From Bryobacteraceae bacterium (GTDB taxonomy: Bacteria; Acidobacteriota; Terriglobia; Bryobacterales; Bryobacteraceae): a stretch of 41,225 nucleotides of DNA. The stretch covers positions 1-41,225 of the forward strand of contig JAPWUP010000013.1 of the NCBI GenBank assembly GCA_028275505.1. Reading direction: 5' to 3'. A program made the position numbers and the translations under genes. Of the stretch, positions 15,666 through 26,355 are shown piece after piece. The notes under the pieces are model-generated. The model saw nothing but the letters and a program-made list of their open reading frames with translations, was not told the origin of the DNA and did no database searches. Position 1 is the first letter of the stretch, and each line of letters starts with the position of its first letter.

Positions 15666-17840
15666 TCAGCGCAGCGAAAGAGTGATCGCGTTCGAAGTCC
15701 CTAGCCGGTTCGCCAACGTGACCGACACGGATTCAATGGCGTCGGTGAGACTGGAAACATTCTTGACGTCACCTTGGAGCGTGAATGGCACCGTCGCGGT
15801 GAAGAGGCTCCCGTATTGCTGGGAGGTGCTGCTCTGGTACCAGGCCAGGAAGCTCGGCTCGGCATTCAGTGTAAGCTTGGTCGTGCCCAGATTCTCGCCC
15901 GCCACCGCCGTGAACTGGAACTCCATCTGCGTGATGGAGCGGCTGGTGGCGTAACCGCTGACCAGCAAGGTCAGGCTGTTGTTGGTCTTCGAAGAAAGCG
16001 CGACGCTCAACAGCCGCGGCGCGCTCTGAGGCACGTTGAGAGTGAGCGAGGGTGGATCACTGGGCGTCAGGTTAATGCCACCCTCGGTCGCAAACGATGG
16101 CGTCAGCACGATGCTGCCCGCCACGGTGCCGGTTTGCAGCCGGATCTCGGGCGCGTTGCCCGCGAACAGGGCCCGTTTGGTGTTGGCCGGGATAGTGAAG
16201 TTAGCCGTGCGCCCTCCGGTGGCGAACTGCACCGCAGGATCCGGGCTGAAGACCTCGGAGTTGAAGCTCAGCGTCAGGGTGCCGGTCAGCGTGAGGGGAT
16301 AGGGCGATTCCAGCTCCAGGCCCACCGAGATCTGCTGCATCGGCTGCTGGGGGCCGCTCGGCGCGATGAAACGGTAGGAAGGCAGCGGATCGGGGGGACC
16401 GCCCGCTCCCGACAGCGTGAAACTCTGCGTGTCAATCTTCAACGTTGCGGTGCTCGTACCCACAGCCGTCGGCGCGAACTGCACGCTGAAGCGCAGGCTG
16501 GCGCCCGGACTGATCGTCGCCGGCAAGGCAGGCACGTCAGCAAGCGAGAACGGGATGCCGGTGGCGCCCAGCGTGATGCTGTTGATCGTGGCGGGCGCCG
16601 TGCCCGTGTTGCTGACGATGAAATCCACACTGGTAGTGCGCCCCACGGCTACCGGCGTGAAGACTACCGTTCCGTTGGGCTGCACCGCCGTGACCGCCGA
16701 TCCGATCGCGTAGGCGTAAGTGAGGGTGGCGCCCAACCCCGTGCCGGTCAGATCAAAGCTATCGGCGCCGATACGCAAGCGCCCTGAGGTACGGCCCGGT
16801 TGCGTCGGGCTGAACGTCACGGTAAAGGTCGCCGAGGCGCCCGGCGCCAGCGTCAACGGCAGGAACGGCAGATCCGCCAGTGCGAAGCCCGTGCCCTGCA
16901 CGCTGATTGTGCTGATGGTCCCGTCGGCGTTGCCCGTGTTGCGCACGCGGATCGTGACGCTGCTCTTGTCCCCTACCAGCGCGTCGGGCAGCGTGATGAG
17001 CTGGGCGGGCGTGATGGCGGCCGCGCCAGCCGGCGAAATCACTTCGTAGGCATAGACCGCTCCCGAGCCGGATCCCTCGAGGCGAAAACTCACTTGCCGG
17101 TCCACCAGCTCGATCACCAGGCTCCCTTGGCTGGTGGCGAGCTGTTTGGGCGAAAACTGAATCGAGAAGCGAAGATCTTTGCCGGCATCCACGGAGACCG
17201 GCGGCAGGGGAAGGCCAGCTAACTGAAAGGCGTCGCCAGCGCCGCGGATGTTATTCACGGTCCCGGCGCCGCTGCCGCGGTTGGTGATGATGAACGTGGC
17301 GGTCGCAGTCGTGTTGAGCGCAGTGAGCGGGAAAGCCACGGTACCGCCCGGCGCCAGCGGGGTGGCGTTTCCTCCCGGCGGGATGTAACTAAAAGCGAAC
17401 TCCGGCGCCGTGCCAACCAGATTGATAGTCAAGGTCGCCGTGGTCCGGCCATCCACGTAGGTAACGGCGATCCGCGCGGAGGTACGCGTCCCGGAGGTGG
17501 GCAGGTAGCGCACGTAGAAGGTCAGGCTTTGGTTCCGCAGCAGGGAGACGGGGAGGTCCGGCAGTCCGCTGACCGAAAAATCGGCGTGGCCGCTGAGGTC
17601 CACAGTGTTGACGCTCACCGAGGTCCCCGTACCCACATAGGTCATCGTGATGGATGCGGAGGCGGGCAGTCCGATGGCGTCGGCCGGCAACGTGATCGTC
17701 CCGCCATCGGTGATCGTGAAGCGATTCGCCCCTTGCTGCACCTGCAAGGTGAACGGCGCTGTGGTCTGGGCGGGGGCCGTGAATGCAAAGATCAGTGCGA
17801 GCGCGAGGAAGGGCAAAACAGTCCGCTGCATCCGTCTCAT
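15666..17840 (-). CDS. Secreted protein with four HYDIN/ASH-like (choice-of-anchor D) Ig-fold repeats
   Basis: This 724-residue protein has a signal peptide (about 1-25, ending APAQ). Four related Ig-like units of about 105-115 residues span roughly 27-143, 146-257, 263-368 and 373-479. Each carries a core of the form F-x-L-x-x-[LV]-P-x-x-P, about ten residues, then SLTFYVRYLP, DLRFSIQFSP, SATFTVTFSP or SLRFSVQFAP. Units 3 and 4 are the closest to each other. The remaining 245 residues are a different beta-rich region ending in VTLANRLGTSNAITLSLR. ASH/HYDIN folds are protein-interaction modules; no enzyme motif is visible. Its ATG overlaps the stop of the upstream propeller-like gene (ATGA, 17837-17840), so translation is coupled. 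The composition, rich in Thr, Ser, Ala and Gly, fits a cell-surface protein. Confidence 0.82.
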   Translation of the reverse strand: MRRMQRTVLPFLALALIFAFTAPAQTTAPFTLQVQQGANRFTITDGGTITLPADAIGLPASASITMTYVGTGTSVSVNTVDLSGHADFSVSGLPDLPVSLLRNQSLTFYVRYLPTSGTRTSARIAVTYVDGRTTATLTINLVGTAPEFAFSYIPPGGNATPLAPGGTVAFPLTALNTTATATFIITNRGSGAGTVNNIRGAGDAFQLAGLPLPPVSVDAGKDLRFSIQFSPKQLATSQGSLVIELVDRQVSFRLEGSGSGAVYAYEVISPAGAAAITPAQLITLPDALVGDKSSVTIRVRNTGNADGTISTISVQGTGFALADLPFLPLTLAPGASATFTVTFSPTQPGRTSGRLRIGADSFDLTGTGLGATLTYAYAIGSAVTAVQPNGTVVFTPVAVGRTTSVDFIVSNTGTAPATINSITLGATGIPFSLADVPALPATISPGASLRFSVQFAPTAVGTSTATLKIDTQSFTLSGAGGPPDPLPSYRFIAPSGPQQPMQQISVGLELESPYPLTLTGTLTLSFNSEVFSPDPAVQFATGGRTANFTIPANTKRALFAGNAPEIRLQTGTVAGSIVLTPSFATEGGINLTPSDPPSLTLNVPQSAPRLLSVALSSKTNNSLTLLVSGYATSRSITQMEFQFTAVAGENLGTTKLTLNAEPSFLAWYQSSTSQQYGSLFTATVPFTLQGDVKNVSSLTDAIESVSVTLANRLGTSNAITLSLR

Positions 17841-18777: not shown

Positions 18778-19521
18778 TCAGCGCGGGCTACCCACGGTGA
18801 TGGGTCCCGGAGTGATCGTGATGGGCCTGGTTGTGGCGGCAGAGGCGGTTCCGTTTCCGCGAGTGGCGGCCACGGCTCCAATCACCGCTCCGGCGGCGCC
18901 AACGCCCACCAGCACCTTCCACAATCCGGAACGCCCGCTCGTCACGCCCGGGCCAGACCCGCCGCGATACGCGTTGGTCTGCGCAATCACAGCGCTCCCT
19001 GTTTTGTTGCCCAACGTGGCCGTCACCTTGATGTTGAACCGCCCGGCTTCGTCGTTAGGCGTATAGCCGCTCGCCCGAGCGCGACCCTGTTCATCGGTGC
19101 GCACGGTCTGCGTTCGCATCCAGCCGTGGAAGACGCCACCGGGTCCGGCGGGCGGCAATTGGAAGACGACTTCCGCCCCGGCTACCGGCTTGTCATTTTC
19201 GTCGCGCACTTCCACGACGGGCGCGGTCGCCGTGCGCGTGCGGATGTTGTTGACCGCGCCTTCTCCTTCGATCACCACCACCTTCAACACCCCGGGTGGC
19301 TCCGGCGGCTTGGCCGGTGCGGGCGCTGCCGGTTGTTGAGGTTGTGCCGGTTGGGGTTGGGCCGGCGTACCTGGTTGTGGCTTCTCTTGCGTCTGGAGCA
19401 TCGAGGGTCTGCCAGGCGGAGGTTGCGCCACCTGGGGACGGGGGCCCGTGGGCTGTTGGGCAGGCAAAGGCCACGCCAGCAACCCGGCGAGAACTGTGCT
19501 GAGAACCGCTCTGAGATCCAA
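18778..19521 (-). CDS. Ig-like domain protein with Pro/Gln-rich linker and C-terminal membrane helix (TTG start)
   Basis: This 247-residue protein has a signal peptide (about 1-21, ending PLPAQ) and a Pro/Gln/Ala-rich low-complexity linker (about 22-76). A bacterial Ig-like (Big_1-type) sandwich follows (about 78-185: VVEVRDENDKPVAGAEVVFQL, in pieces, TVRTDEQGRARASGYTPNDEAG, FNIKVTATLGNKTGSA). A Gly/Ala-rich hydrophobic helix (about 200-222: GLWKVLVGVGAAGAVIGAVAA) precedes a Thr-rich tail. The start is TTG at 19521, supported by an excellent AGGAGG about seven bases upstream and by the signal peptide beginning there. It is first in the exported gene run. The 195 bases upstream (19522-19716) show no gene. 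Function unknown; a surface anchor or linker to the cell wall is possible. Confidence 0.78.
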   Translation of the reverse strand: MDLRAVLSTVLAGLLAWPLPAQQPTGPRPQVAQPPPGRPSMLQTQEKPQPGTPAQPQPAQPQQPAAPAPAKPPEPPGVLKVVVIEGEGAVNNIRTRTATAPVVEVRDENDKPVAGAEVVFQLPPAGPGGVFHGWMRTQTVRTDEQGRARASGYTPNDEAGRFNIKVTATLGNKTGSAVIAQTNAYRGGSGPGVTSGRSGLWKVLVGVGAAGAVIGAVAATRGNGTASAATTRPITITPGPITVGSPR

Positions 19522-23739: not shown

Positions 23740-24006
23740 GACCTCCTCGAGCTGGTATGAAATCTCGTGCCGGACGGGTCGCCGCCGCGATCGGCCGTCC
23801 CGGGGCGCCGCCGGCTCGGCTGCTACCGGATACCATGCTAGCGCGGGACGCATCCCGGCGCGAGCACTTCACAGCTATGGCGTGCGCAGGGGCCGACCGG
23901 TTACTTTGGCGCACTGCGCGGCGGCCCTTGCTTCTGCCGAGGGATTCGCGGTCGAATTCGTTGCGGGAGTCGGCACTGTGCGGTGAGTCGGATTCGAGAA
24001 GCACTC

Positions 24007-24015
24007 TGCTACAAT
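24007..24015 (+). promoter_or_regulatory. Extended -10 promoter of the triple RidA-like gene
   Basis: TGCTACAAT, predicted start near 24022, nine bases before the ATG at 24031. It lies downstream of an in-frame GTG at 23983, arguing for the ATG. The rest of the 291-base divergent gap (23740-24030) shows no gene. Confidence 0.45.
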
Positions 24016-24030
24016 CGTGAGCGGGACCCG

Positions 24031-25248
24031 ATGCGAGGCGCACTCATCCTCGGGTTGGCGTTCGCTTGGGTCTGCGTGGACGCGACCCGCACATTCGCCG
24101 CTCAGCGCCCGCGCCAGCGCCAGGAATGGCCCCTGCCCGTGGCCGAACCCAAGAAAAAGGAACCCGAAGAGCCGACCCAGGTCCTCGAGCTGCCCAAGGA
24201 GCCACCGGCCAGCGTCGTCGCCGACAGCACGCGGCTCAGCTTCCATGTCTCCCCCCTGACCGGCCAGGGATTGCTTTCCCAACAAGCCCGTCAGACTTTG
24301 CGCGCCCTGATCGGGCAGGTGCGCAACGCCTCGGTGATCAAGCTCCGTGCTTTCGTGGCCGGCACGGGAGACTTGCGGCGCGTGCAGGCCGTGGTGAGCG
24401 AGACTTTCACGGAACGACGCTTGCCGCTGCCCGCGCTCACTGTGGTCCAGGTGGGCGCCCTTCCGCTCACCGGGGCGCAGGTGGTTTTCGAGGCGATCGC
24501 GCAGGAGCGCAGGCCCGTGAATCCGCACGGACTGGCCTTCATTTCCGGGCAGGCGGCGACTGCGCCCGACCCTTTGGCGCCTCCCGGGCCGCTGCTGGAG
24601 AAATCCCTGAGCGATCTGCGCACGGCAGTGCACGCCGCGGGGACCACCGAAGAAGACGTTCTTCGGGCGACTTGTTTCATTGCGTCCTTTGACGACTGGA
24701 CCCACCTGCGCCAGCAAATGGCCCGTGTGTTCCCCCGCGCCGCCCTGAATCTGCTGCAGCCACAGCGCGCGCCGACTCGCGCCCTGGTGGAATGCGAAGC
24801 TGTGGCACGGTTGCGTACGCCTCCCGACGCCCCGCTCAAGCTAATCAACCCGCCCGGTCTTCCCCAGTCGCCGTTCTATTCCCAGATCGCTTTGGTGGGG
24901 CCGGGACCGCTCGTGCTGACCGGCGCGCAGTTGGGCTTCCGCTTCAGCGAGGAAGATGCCCGGCTGGCTTTCCAGCGCTTGGGCCGCACGCTGAAAGAGG
25001 CGGGCGCTTCCTTCGACGCTGTGGCCATGTCGCACATCTATCCTCTTTCCGGCGCCATCGGGGAAATGGTGCGGCGCGTGCGCGGCGAATTCTACAATGG
25101 CAAAGCGCCTCCCGCCTCGACCATGCTGTCTTTCGAGGGGCTGCCGTCGCTCGATGCCTCCTTCGGCGTGGACGTGATCGCGGTGCGCAGCGCAGCATCG
25201 GCGCCGACGGGTTTGCCCGGGCCCACGGGTTCGGCGGGCCAGCGCTGA
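24031..25248 (+). CDS. Exported protein with three tandem RidA/YjgF-like domains
   Basis: This 405-residue protein has a signal peptide (MRGALILGLAFAWVCVDA onward, about 1-24), then a charged Pro/Glu/Lys linker (25-60). Three RidA-like units span about 66-158, 162-260 and 270-387. Unit 2 (LAFISGQAAT, DLRTAVHAAGTTEEDVLRATCFIASFDD in pieces, VECEAVA) and unit 3 (LVLTGAQLGF, GRTLKEAGASFDAVAMSHIY, VDVIAVRS) are clear; unit 1 (RQTLRALIGQV, VVFEAIA) is more diverged. RidA is a homotrimer that hydrolyses reactive enamines, with a substrate-binding Arg in a P-A-R-S context. The matching places here read LPALT, PRAAL and PPAST, so that Arg is missing or shifted in all three. The chain may fold as a one-polypeptide pseudo-trimer that binds rather than hydrolyses. 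The KDG kinase gene follows after 72 bases. Confidence 0.82.
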   Translation: MRGALILGLAFAWVCVDATRTFAAQRPRQRQEWPLPVAEPKKKEPEEPTQVLELPKEPPASVVADSTRLSFHVSPLTGQGLLSQQARQTLRALIGQVRNASVIKLRAFVAGTGDLRRVQAVVSETFTERRLPLPALTVVQVGALPLTGAQVVFEAIAQERRPVNPHGLAFISGQAATAPDPLAPPGPLLEKSLSDLRTAVHAAGTTEEDVLRATCFIASFDDWTHLRQQMARVFPRAALNLLQPQRAPTRALVECEAVARLRTPPDAPLKLINPPGLPQSPFYSQIALVGPGPLVLTGAQLGFRFSEEDARLAFQRLGRTLKEAGASFDAVAMSHIYPLSGAIGEMVRRVRGEFYNGKAPPASTMLSFEGLPSLDASFGVDVIAVRSAASAPTGLPGPTGSAGQR

Positions 25249-25320
25249 GTGTCGCCACGCCGCCGGGCATTTCCCCGCGCGCACGTCCCCTTGGGGTATT
25301 TTCAAGTAGGAGTTATTGCC

Positions 25321-26355
25321 ATGGCTCAAATGGTAGTGACGTTCGGTGAGATCATGTTGCGCCTGGCGCCGCCGGGCTTCGAGCGCTTTCTGCAATCGCC
25401 CATGTTCATGGCCACCTTTGGCGGCGGCGAAGCCAACGTCGCGGTCGCCCTGGCCGGGTTCGGAATTCCTGCGCGATACGTGACGGTCCTGCCGCCCAAG
25501 CATCCCATCGCGGATGCTGTGATCAGCCAGTTGCGCGGCTTCGGCGTGGATACCTCCAAGATCGTGCGCGCGCCCGGCCGGATGGGCGTTTATTACGTAG
25601 AAAGCGGCGCCAACCAGCGACCGTCCAAGGTGGTGTACGACCGCGATTACAGCGCCATCGCTCTGGCCAAGCCAGGCGTGATCAACTGGGACGATGCGCT
25701 GGAAGGCGCCGGCTGGTTCCACATCACGGGCATCACGCCGGCCATCAGTCAGGGTGCCGCGGACCTCGCGCTGGAGGCCGTGCAGCGGGCGCGCGAAAAA
25801 GGCCTCACCGTTTCCTGCGACCTGAACTTCCGCAAGAACCTTTGGAAATACGGCAAGTCCGCTCCCGAAGTCATGCGCGAGCTCTTCCGCTACGTTGACG
25901 TCGGCATCGCCAACGAAGAGGACGTGCAGATGGCGCTGGGAATCCCCGCCGACGTGGACGTGCACTCGGGCAAGCTCGACGTTTCCCAGTATCGCGGGCT
26001 GACCGAAAGGGTCATGGGCGAGTTCAAGAACCTGAAGCTCATGGCCATCACCTTGCGGGAGTCTTTCAGCGCCTCGCACAACGGCTGGTCCGCCTGCCTG
26101 AACAACGGCCGCGAATTTCTCACCAGTCGCCGGTACGACATCACGCATATCGTGGACCGCGTGGGCGCGGGCGACTGCTTCGCCGGCGGCCTGATTTACG
26201 GCCTGCTCACCTTGCCGACCCATCAGGAAGCGCTCGAGTTCGCCGTCGCCGCTTCCTGCCTCAAACACTCACTGCCCGGCGATTTCAACCGCTTCAGCGT
26301 GGAGGAAGTGCAGGCTCTGCTCAAGGGCGGTGGATCGGGCCGCGTGCAGCGCTGA
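25321..26355 (+). CDS. kdgK: PfkB-family 2-keto-3-deoxygluconate kinase
   Basis: This 344-residue cytoplasmic kinase phosphorylates KDG to KDPG, the last activation step in uronate and pectin breakdown. PfkB motif 1 is [18 protein letters not shown] (31-48). The catalytic Asp285 sits in the anion-hole motif [12 protein letters not shown] (279-290). Residues [20 protein letters not shown] match KDG-kinase-type substrate recognition, so I favour KDG over other PfkB substrates, though biochemistry would be needed to separate close homologues. The start ATG at 25321 has AGGAG nine bases upstream; the frame is open to 25249 but has no start signal there. A weak TATTTT hexamer lies at 25297-25302. 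Its 3' end faces murJ with three bases between stop codons. It fits the PL10 lyase operon 16 kb away. Confidence 0.85.

Follow-up and report, generated by a model that had tools for sequence, protein, structure and literature searches.

What does a protein do that strings three Rid units together in one chain, starts like an exported protein and lacks the arginine that RidA catalysis uses? This question is raised by a gene in the stretch of DNA analyzed here (hereafter the window), which comprises 41,225 nucleotides of contig JAPWUP010000013.1 from a Bryobacteraceae bacterium (GCA_028275505.1). A preliminary description of the gene, made from the letters alone, knew of no such arrangement. That statement is partly wrong, since 3x-RidA proteins and the Arg-less Rid4-Rid7 proteins are already described in passages of Niehaus et al. 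2015 (PMC4433059), and AtzD in passages of Peat et al. 2013 (PMC3758960).

Gene Structure and Domain Composition

The focal gene occupies positions 24031..25248 of the plus strand, with an ATG at 24031 and a stop codon at 25246-25248, and encodes a probably exported triple-Rid protein of 405 amino acids (homologue alignments A1 and A2). The preliminary description had the coordinates and the reading frame correct, and its count of three RidA-like units in one chain agrees with both the domain matches and the predicted fold. PF01042 (Ribonuc_L-PSP), the sole Pfam family above cut-off, was found in three stretches of the protein (E 5.7e-26), the best of them at residues 164-259, and the matches to NCBIfam Rid models all lay below their cut-offs. 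The solved chains similar to the protein were of the RidA type, and in the alignment with the best of them (2csl, on unit 2, E 3.5e-6) L239 stood opposite the catalytic Arg. Because homologues reach down to 35% identity, the reading frame is not a chance pattern.

The product begins with a signal-peptide-like N-terminus (residues 1-24; 24031..24102), whose cleavage site was placed by eye and whose hydrophobic segment recurs in homologues. A linker rich in Lys, Glu and Pro follows at 24103..24210 and ends in a TQxLExPxxPP motif, in which Q50 is present in 97% and P59 in 100% of 73 sequences. The three Rid units, with borders of our own choosing, come next in tandem, all on the plus strand: unit 1 at residues 61-160 (24211..24510), with L136 at the catalytic Arg position and invariant R106, D114, R116, R117, Q150 and E154; unit 2 at residues 161-262 (24511..24816), with L239 at the Arg position and conserved C215, C255 and R246; and unit 3 at residues 263-388 (24817..25194), with S363 at the Arg position and conserved R316, Y337, E369 and D375. 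The protein belongs to the Rid superfamily (PF01042) by its profile matches as well as by its fold, with all three units superposing on solved Rid chains, and its three tandem Rid domains per chain correspond to the 3x-RidA architecture.

Predicted Fold and Packing of the Units

Three sets of homologues were aligned: A1 comprised the window protein and 29 homologues; A2 the window protein and 62 of the 74 named proteins, with L057, L083, eight non-ATG starts and two near-duplicates omitted; and A5, further thinned, the window fragment and 46 named proteins. An AlphaFold2 model of the mature protein (62 homologues) was compact, with a pLDDT of 93.2 and a pTM of 0.88, and displayed the pattern (strand)-helix-strand-helix-strand-strand three times, and a fragment model limited to units 1 and 2 (47-row alignment) reached a pLDDT of 93.2 and a pTM of 0.84. 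In VIA searches, unit 1 (fragment-model residues 32..137) superposed on the Rid protein 9bka over 106 aligned residues at 2.0 Å (Z 13.0), unit 2 (fragment-model residues 142..238) on 7cd2_E over 93 residues at 2.3 Å (Z 11.8), and unit 3 (full-model residues 243..362) on 5v4f_A over 119 residues at 1.8 Å (Z 10.0). Solved Rid subunits thus match every one of the three units, which makes all of them Rid folds, and the structure prediction contains the full set of three rather than fewer.

The preliminary description had further proposed a trimer-like packing of these units. In the full model, 46 of the 50 VIA rows matched a single Rid subunit to a range joining residues ~31 to ~363 (1.4-2.5 Å), and strand 61-65, which is present in this model, was absent from the fragment model without unit 3; from these two observations units 1 and 3 probably touch. 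A joined range alone is no proof of contact, because the fragment without unit 3 also gave joined rows: 13 of 50 linked its N-terminus with its last unit, although they fitted less well (3.6-5.7 Å). The VIA ranges, the pTM and the loss of strand 61-65 fit a trimer-like closed ring without proving it, and they lend the proposed packing a support that is indirect.

The top Foldseek matches of the full model were Toblerone enzymes, over the full length (5hy2, E 2.3e-9), and their poor superposition (TM ~0.24, rmsd ~20 Å) speaks against the focal protein simply repeating the Toblerone layout. Taken together, the low TM and the full-length match suggest that the order of units around the predicted ring may differ from that of AtzD, and strand exchange would look alike. 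AtzD-type chains were absent from the 50 VIA rows listed, and the best global superposition by VIA was that on the chorismatase 4bps (187 residues, 3.0 Å, Z 13.1). Chorismatase is Rid-related, and the likeness of the chorismatases (4bps, 5a3k, 5ag3) to the focal protein, at an identity of ~15%, is one of fold.

Decay of the Catalytic Positions and Constraint on Unit 1

Conservation was assessed in an alignment of 73 rows, comprising the window protein and 72 named homologues, with L057 (contig end) and L083 (open C-end) omitted. At the position of the catalytic Arg (Ec105), R was present in 0, 3 and 1 of the 73 sequences for units 1, 2 and 3, respectively; in other words, the residue was absent from unit 1 in 73/73, from unit 2 in 70/73 (one gap) and from unit 3 in 72/73, which bears out the loss of Arg from every unit read in the preliminary description. 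The position is occupied by L/V/I/F in unit 1, mostly by L/A/F/V in unit 2 and mostly by S/G in unit 3, where Ser accounts for 31 of 73. The same description had taken the Arg of unit 2 to be shifted (PRAAL), a point on which it was mistaken: R236 is unaligned with the catalytic Arg and variable (R in 14/73), and was ruled out as a displaced catalytic residue. At the position of the catalytic Glu (Ec120), the residues are mostly V/Q/L/I in unit 1 and A/G in unit 3, Glu not being among the four commonest of either unit in the 73 sequences; in unit 2, E is found in 36 of 73. The protein therefore falls outside the RidA subfamily by its catalytic Arg and by its catalytic Glu. Because Arg and mostly Glu are missing at the catalytic positions, RidA imine chemistry has very likely been lost.

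The conserved positions are unevenly spread over the chain. Of the 100 positions of unit 1, 19 were at least 95% conserved, compared with 5 such positions among the 102 of unit 2 and 6 among the 126 of unit 3 (unit 1 versus the other units, Fisher p = 1.1e-4), and seven charged residues, R106, D114, R116, R117, E154, R246 and D375, were invariant in 73/73. From this unit-1-centered conservation and the invariant charged residues we infer one functional site around unit 1, probably for an anion. Alternatively, what keeps these residues conserved may be folding and not the binding of a ligand.

Evidence for Export

Among the matches listed, 73 of 74 named homologues had a hydrophobic N-terminal segment (Kyte-Doolittle 10-mer mean ≥1.9 near the start); L088 only just reached 1.9, and the sole failing homologue, L057, is clipped by a contig end. 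The rule used for picking starts favors hydrophobic ones, and neighboring genes were consequently run as controls. The Kyte-Doolittle test was passed by 3/24 kdgK-like kinases, 3/20 PdxS, 2/17 PdxR-like and 3/13 S24-like proteins, and by 6/17 PdxT, 12/15 LMW phosphatases and 17/19 VWA proteins; the whole cluster of triple-Rid ORFs, extra ORFs included, passed in 69 of 79 cases. Under a second, stricter rule (a basic residue, then 10 uncharged), 68 of 74 triple-Rid proteins passed; among the controls, which could use any start, those passing were 10/24 kinases, 4/20 PdxS, 1/17 PdxR-like proteins, 3/13 S24-like proteins, 8/17 PdxT, 9/15 LMW phosphatases and 17/19 VWA proteins. The VWA protein may itself be exported, and the LMW phosphatase, which often passes both tests, is probably cytosolic. 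The hydrophobicity statistic, which lies above that of most control genes yet is non-specific, is thus supportive of export. Export gains extra weight because the signal-like segment is not part of the Rid fold and leads into the Lys/Glu-rich linker and the TQxLExPxxPP motif. The protein is likely exported, as predicted from its N-terminus, and its location would be periplasmic. The signal peptide claimed in the preliminary description holds at the level of an export-like N-terminus, and the homologues have kept it.

The mature part contains exactly two Cys residues in 61 of 73 sequences. Both conserved positions belong to unit 2, C215 (24673-24675) being found in 73/73 and C255 (24793-24795) in 71/73. 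The order of strands in the Rid sheet puts the C215 and C255 strands side by side, and a C215-C255 disulphide is possible, as would suit an exported protein.

Distribution and Related Triple-Rid Families

In the family sample, 186 of 200 genomes (93%), and 130 of the 140 of good quality, matched at E ≤1e-20, usually with one match per genome; one of the 186, G457 (E 1.8e-21), was no stronger than weak matches outside the family. A first sample of 61 relatives had given matches at E <1e-35 in 36 of 37 same-family genomes and in 0 of 24 outside the family, where weaker Rid matches were seen. Across the phylum, 13 of 396 genomes matched at E ≤1e-12, and three of these, from the same family, scored far higher; this outside-family distribution is a lower bound, the best 5 (396-genome sample) or 9 candidates per genome having been scored. 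The scan of named genomes yielded at least 77 loci, and 74 named proteins were read among the matches listed, with the partial L105-L107 left out. The listed loci came nearly all from Acidobacteria, mostly labelled Bryobacterales, Bryobacteraceae, Solibacter or Sulfopaludibacter, and judging by these labels the sampled family, one of soil bacteria, would be the Bryobacteraceae. Two listed loci were labelled otherwise, L038 as Acidimicrobiia and L100 as Bordetella. The latter, from a metagenome bin labelled Bordetella parapertussis, has an Acidobacteria-type gene at 35% identity, and its label is probably misassigned.

The source genome also has a canonical RidA (L121), and two more triple-Rid types, families B and C, were found with signal-like starts by eye. 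Family B (L111, L112, L113, L114, L115, L118, L124 and L125) has three Rid units behind a signal-like N-terminus, and the source genome's own copy lies at L111:455-1702 (G000:C25) on the minus strand. Family B and the focal family have the triple-Rid chain and the signal-like start in common, whereas the Arg lost in the focal family is kept in B: a catalytic-type Arg is present in 23 of the 24 units of the eight sequences, the exception being unit 1 of L111, with Cys. By hhalign, the best match between the two families scored 99, less than that of family C, and apparently placed focal units 2-3 on B units 1-2, compared with 80 for the apparently in-register match, the registers being judged from the alignment ranges. 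From its residues, family B is a candidate extracytoplasmic imine hydrolase. In one member of family B (L115:1-1785, minus strand), the frame runs past the third Rid unit into an SMP-30/gluconolactonase-like domain (by eye).

Family C, which comes from the sister family and others, comprises L108-L110, L112, L116, L117 and L119. Family C is Arg-less by eye and aligns with the focal family in register and over nearly the full length (hhalign local 176 versus 71 in the next register), which points to a probable shared triple ancestor, and the conserved residues of the two families are distinct. At E 1e-25 it turned up in 3 of 199 genomes from the phylum, nine candidates per genome being scored.

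Promoter-Like Element and Neighboring Genes

An extended -10-like element, TGCTACAAT, lies at 24007..24015 on the plus strand, 15 nt 5' of the ATG. In 53 of 74 loci (window included) the 60 bp 5' of the start contain the motif TANAAT, often with TGN before it, compared with a shuffle expectation of 1.95, and in 42 of these 53 it ended 8-21 nt 5' of the start codon; an AGGA-type ribosome site was found in just 1 of 74 loci. From this arrangement, the triple-Rid gene is probably transcribed from a promoter of its own, with a 5' leader that is very short or missing. A generic two-box sigma-70 scan of 23850-24100 returned nothing, the element at 24007-24015 included.

The next gene on the plus strand codes for a PfkB-family sugar kinase, 2-keto-3-deoxygluconate-kinase-like, at 25321..26355 (PF00294, E 2.1e-27); its ORF is listed from a GTG at 25249, the ATG at 25321 being the likelier start by eye, and its matches to the NCBIfam kinase models were all below cut-off. 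Among the matches listed, 25 of 72 loci (window included) have a same-strand PfkB kinase <500 bp downstream, and it is possibly co-transcribed with the triple-Rid gene. PdxS lies <3.7 kb upstream on the opposite strand in 18 of 63 loci and a divergent PdxR-like regulator <400 bp away in 8 of 63, again among the matches listed, and PdxS upstream and the kinase downstream occur together in four loci. The identity of the kinase was tested in L032 and the window, and those of PdxR, PdxS, PdxT, LMW phosphatase, VWA and S24-like proteins at one locus each (L054 or L032), neighbors at the other loci being assigned by BLAST clustering. In L054, PdxS and PdxT scored above the NCBIfam cut-offs and PdxR reached 315.9 bits against a cut-off of 320; Pfam identified GntR with aminotransferase, SOR/SNZ, SNO and LMW phosphatase in L054, and VWA and S24-like in L032. 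At L054:2831-5862, L089, L094 and L077, the PdxR-like, PdxS and PdxT genes (vitamin B6 synthesis) are transcribed away from the triple-Rid gene. An extra ORF that clusters with the triple-Rid genes (L032:608-1420) had no Pfam match. Upstream of the focal gene, on the minus strand of the window, are Ig-like domain genes at 15666-17840 and 18778-19521 (ASH/HYDIN-type; Big_1 below cut-off).

Rid proteins protect PLP enzymes, and a PLP link is suggestive for this reason; in the window the kinase is present and PLP genes are absent. The PfkB kinase is cytosolic by family, so its adjacency leaves an exported partner unexplained, which counts against the explanation that we prefer. At the frequencies given above, and with a window devoid of PLP genes, the gene neighborhood was rejected as proof of function. 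The neighbors look like a slowly eroding ancestral gene order, and such an order could be inherited without function.

Comparison With Known Systems

The 3x-RidA proteins, such as EF_0115, are assigned to the RidA subfamily and presumed to be trimer units joined covalently in passages of Niehaus et al. 2015 (PMC4433059), a paper in which the terms "signal peptide" and "periplasm" have 0 occurrences. Compared with the published description of the EF_0115 class, rather than with its sequence, the focal protein has the tandem triple-Rid chain in common but adds an export-like N-terminus, a near-total loss of Arg and an Acidobacteria lineage. Passages of the same paper present Rid4-Rid7 as Arg-less, presumed non-hydrolases of imines, calling them mysterious and their functions completely unknown; they keep the Glu, and the Arg site is Trp in Rid4 and Rid7 and variable in Rid5 and Rid6 (PMC4433059). 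The loss of Arg is common to Rid4-Rid7 and the focal protein, whereas the latter also lacks the Glu in units 1 and 3 and has three units fused. With Glu gone from these units and no Trp majority at the Arg site, it stands outside Rid4-Rid7 by residues.

The Toblerone fold of AtzD is described in passages of Peat et al. 2013 (PMC3758960) as concatenated YjgF monomers with an internal pseudo-threefold, with which YjgF trimers align poorly; Lys and Ser residues are conserved throughout the Toblerone proteins, which have Ser-Lys sites and a metal site (PMC3758960). AtzD, TrzD and barbiturase resemble the focal protein as single chains of three YjgF-like units, but the focal protein is without matching conserved Ser/Lys: in window-aligned columns of 73 sequences, the top Ser reached 88% and the top Lys 81%. 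Passages of another paper (PMC9537276) place both OngD, a RidA family protein, and KdgK in the cytoplasmic part of a chitin-oxidation cluster and neither call OngD exported nor demonstrate which reaction it carries out itself; the likeness of this cluster to the focal locus would be at most analogy. In the accessible part of the open-access PMC literature, no description came up of a triple-Rid protein that is exported or comes from Acidobacteria. Triple fusion and loss of Arg are singly known, and what is new is the combination of predicted export, loss of Arg in all units, unit-1-centered constraint and lineage-wide retention.

Competing Explanations

We prefer, with moderate confidence, the explanation that the focal protein is a probably exported periplasmic Rid pseudo-trimer that is dead as an imine hydrolase and would possess one asymmetric anion-binding site. 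Within this explanation, a real, conserved and probably exported Rid pseudo-trimer is the probable core. Direct support comes from the three Rid folds in a confident model, the export-like N-terminus, the loss of Arg and mostly of Glu, the constraint on unit 1 and the retention across the family; ring closure, periplasmic location, the single site and the anionic ligand are what we infer. The single-chain pseudo-trimer outside the cytoplasm suggested in the preliminary description accordingly stands in its three folds and its export-like start, with its ring and its location as conditional parts. Its suggested turn to ligand binding or a new reaction agrees with the loss of Arg and Glu, the new role itself being conjectural.

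Decayed catalytic positions, a charged Lys/Glu linker behind the signal-like segment and retention across one family would also suit a cell-envelope scaffold that has lost catalysis, has a structural or protein-binding role and lacks any small-molecule site, which we regard as possible though rather unlikely; the invariance of R106, D114, R116, R117, R246 and D375 in 73/73 sequences is more typical of a functional pocket. It is improbable, in our judgment, that the protein is a working exported imine/enamine deaminase in which other residues replace the catalytic Arg, in spite of the Rid fold of all three units and the Glu120 equivalent retained by unit 2 in 36/73. The upstream PdxS in 18/63 loci would fit such an activity, as passages of PMC4433059 report that Rid genes cluster with PLP-enzyme genes, and so would the Ser of unit 3 in 31/73, as ~10% of RidA proteins have Ser in place of Arg according to that source. 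However, the Arg equivalent is missing nearly everywhere, the four commonest residues where Glu120 would lie in units 1 and 3 include no Glu, and the source genome already has its canonical RidA; moreover, the same source reports the catalytic Arg as essential and an Arg-less Rid7 as showing no imine hydrolysis. A Toblerone-type cyclic amide hydrolase of the AtzD or barbiturase kind, with a central Ser-Lys site, would explain why the top Foldseek matches extend over the full length, and yet it is very unlikely: the TM-score is only ~0.24, no cyclic-amide-hydrolase family is among the Pfam matches, and the best-conserved Ser and Lys of the window-aligned columns reach just 88% and 81% of the 73 sequences, in contrast to the conserved Lys/Ser described in passages of PMC3758960. 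With no conserved Ser/Lys, a cyclic amide hydrolase by homology was rejected.

Proposed Mechanism and Implications

Under the exported pseudo-trimer explanation, the three Rid units of one chain would fold into a ring resembling the RidA homotrimer, and the N-terminal strand would pair with unit 3 and close this ring. Gene fusion would have left the three inter-unit clefts free to diverge, so that the RidA imine-hydrolase machinery (Arg105, Glu120) could decay and one cleft around unit 1 be rebuilt as a putative polar site, formed by R106, D114, R116 and R117 with conserved residues of units 2 and 3. Outside the cytoplasm, the predicted site may bind a single small anion, either a carboxylate or a phosphate, and this binding might serve sensing or scavenging, or a reaction without the RidA mechanism. 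A bolder reading, which we consider doubtful, is that of a family-wide extracytoplasmic one-site Rid machine, in which the Arg/Asp cluster of unit 1 would support chemistry or sensing new to the Rid superfamily, beside an Arg-bearing sister type that is maybe an extracytoplasmic imine hydrolase.

The roles of Arg-less Rid proteins are a blank in passages of PMC4433059, and the focal family offers a clean test case: because the constraint is concentrated in a single one of its fused units, there should be just one functional site, and it should be possible to locate it. If true, the preferred explanation would make this family an instance of fusion followed by asymmetric specialization of a symmetric enzyme, and the family raises the possibility of Rid chemistry beyond the cytoplasm.
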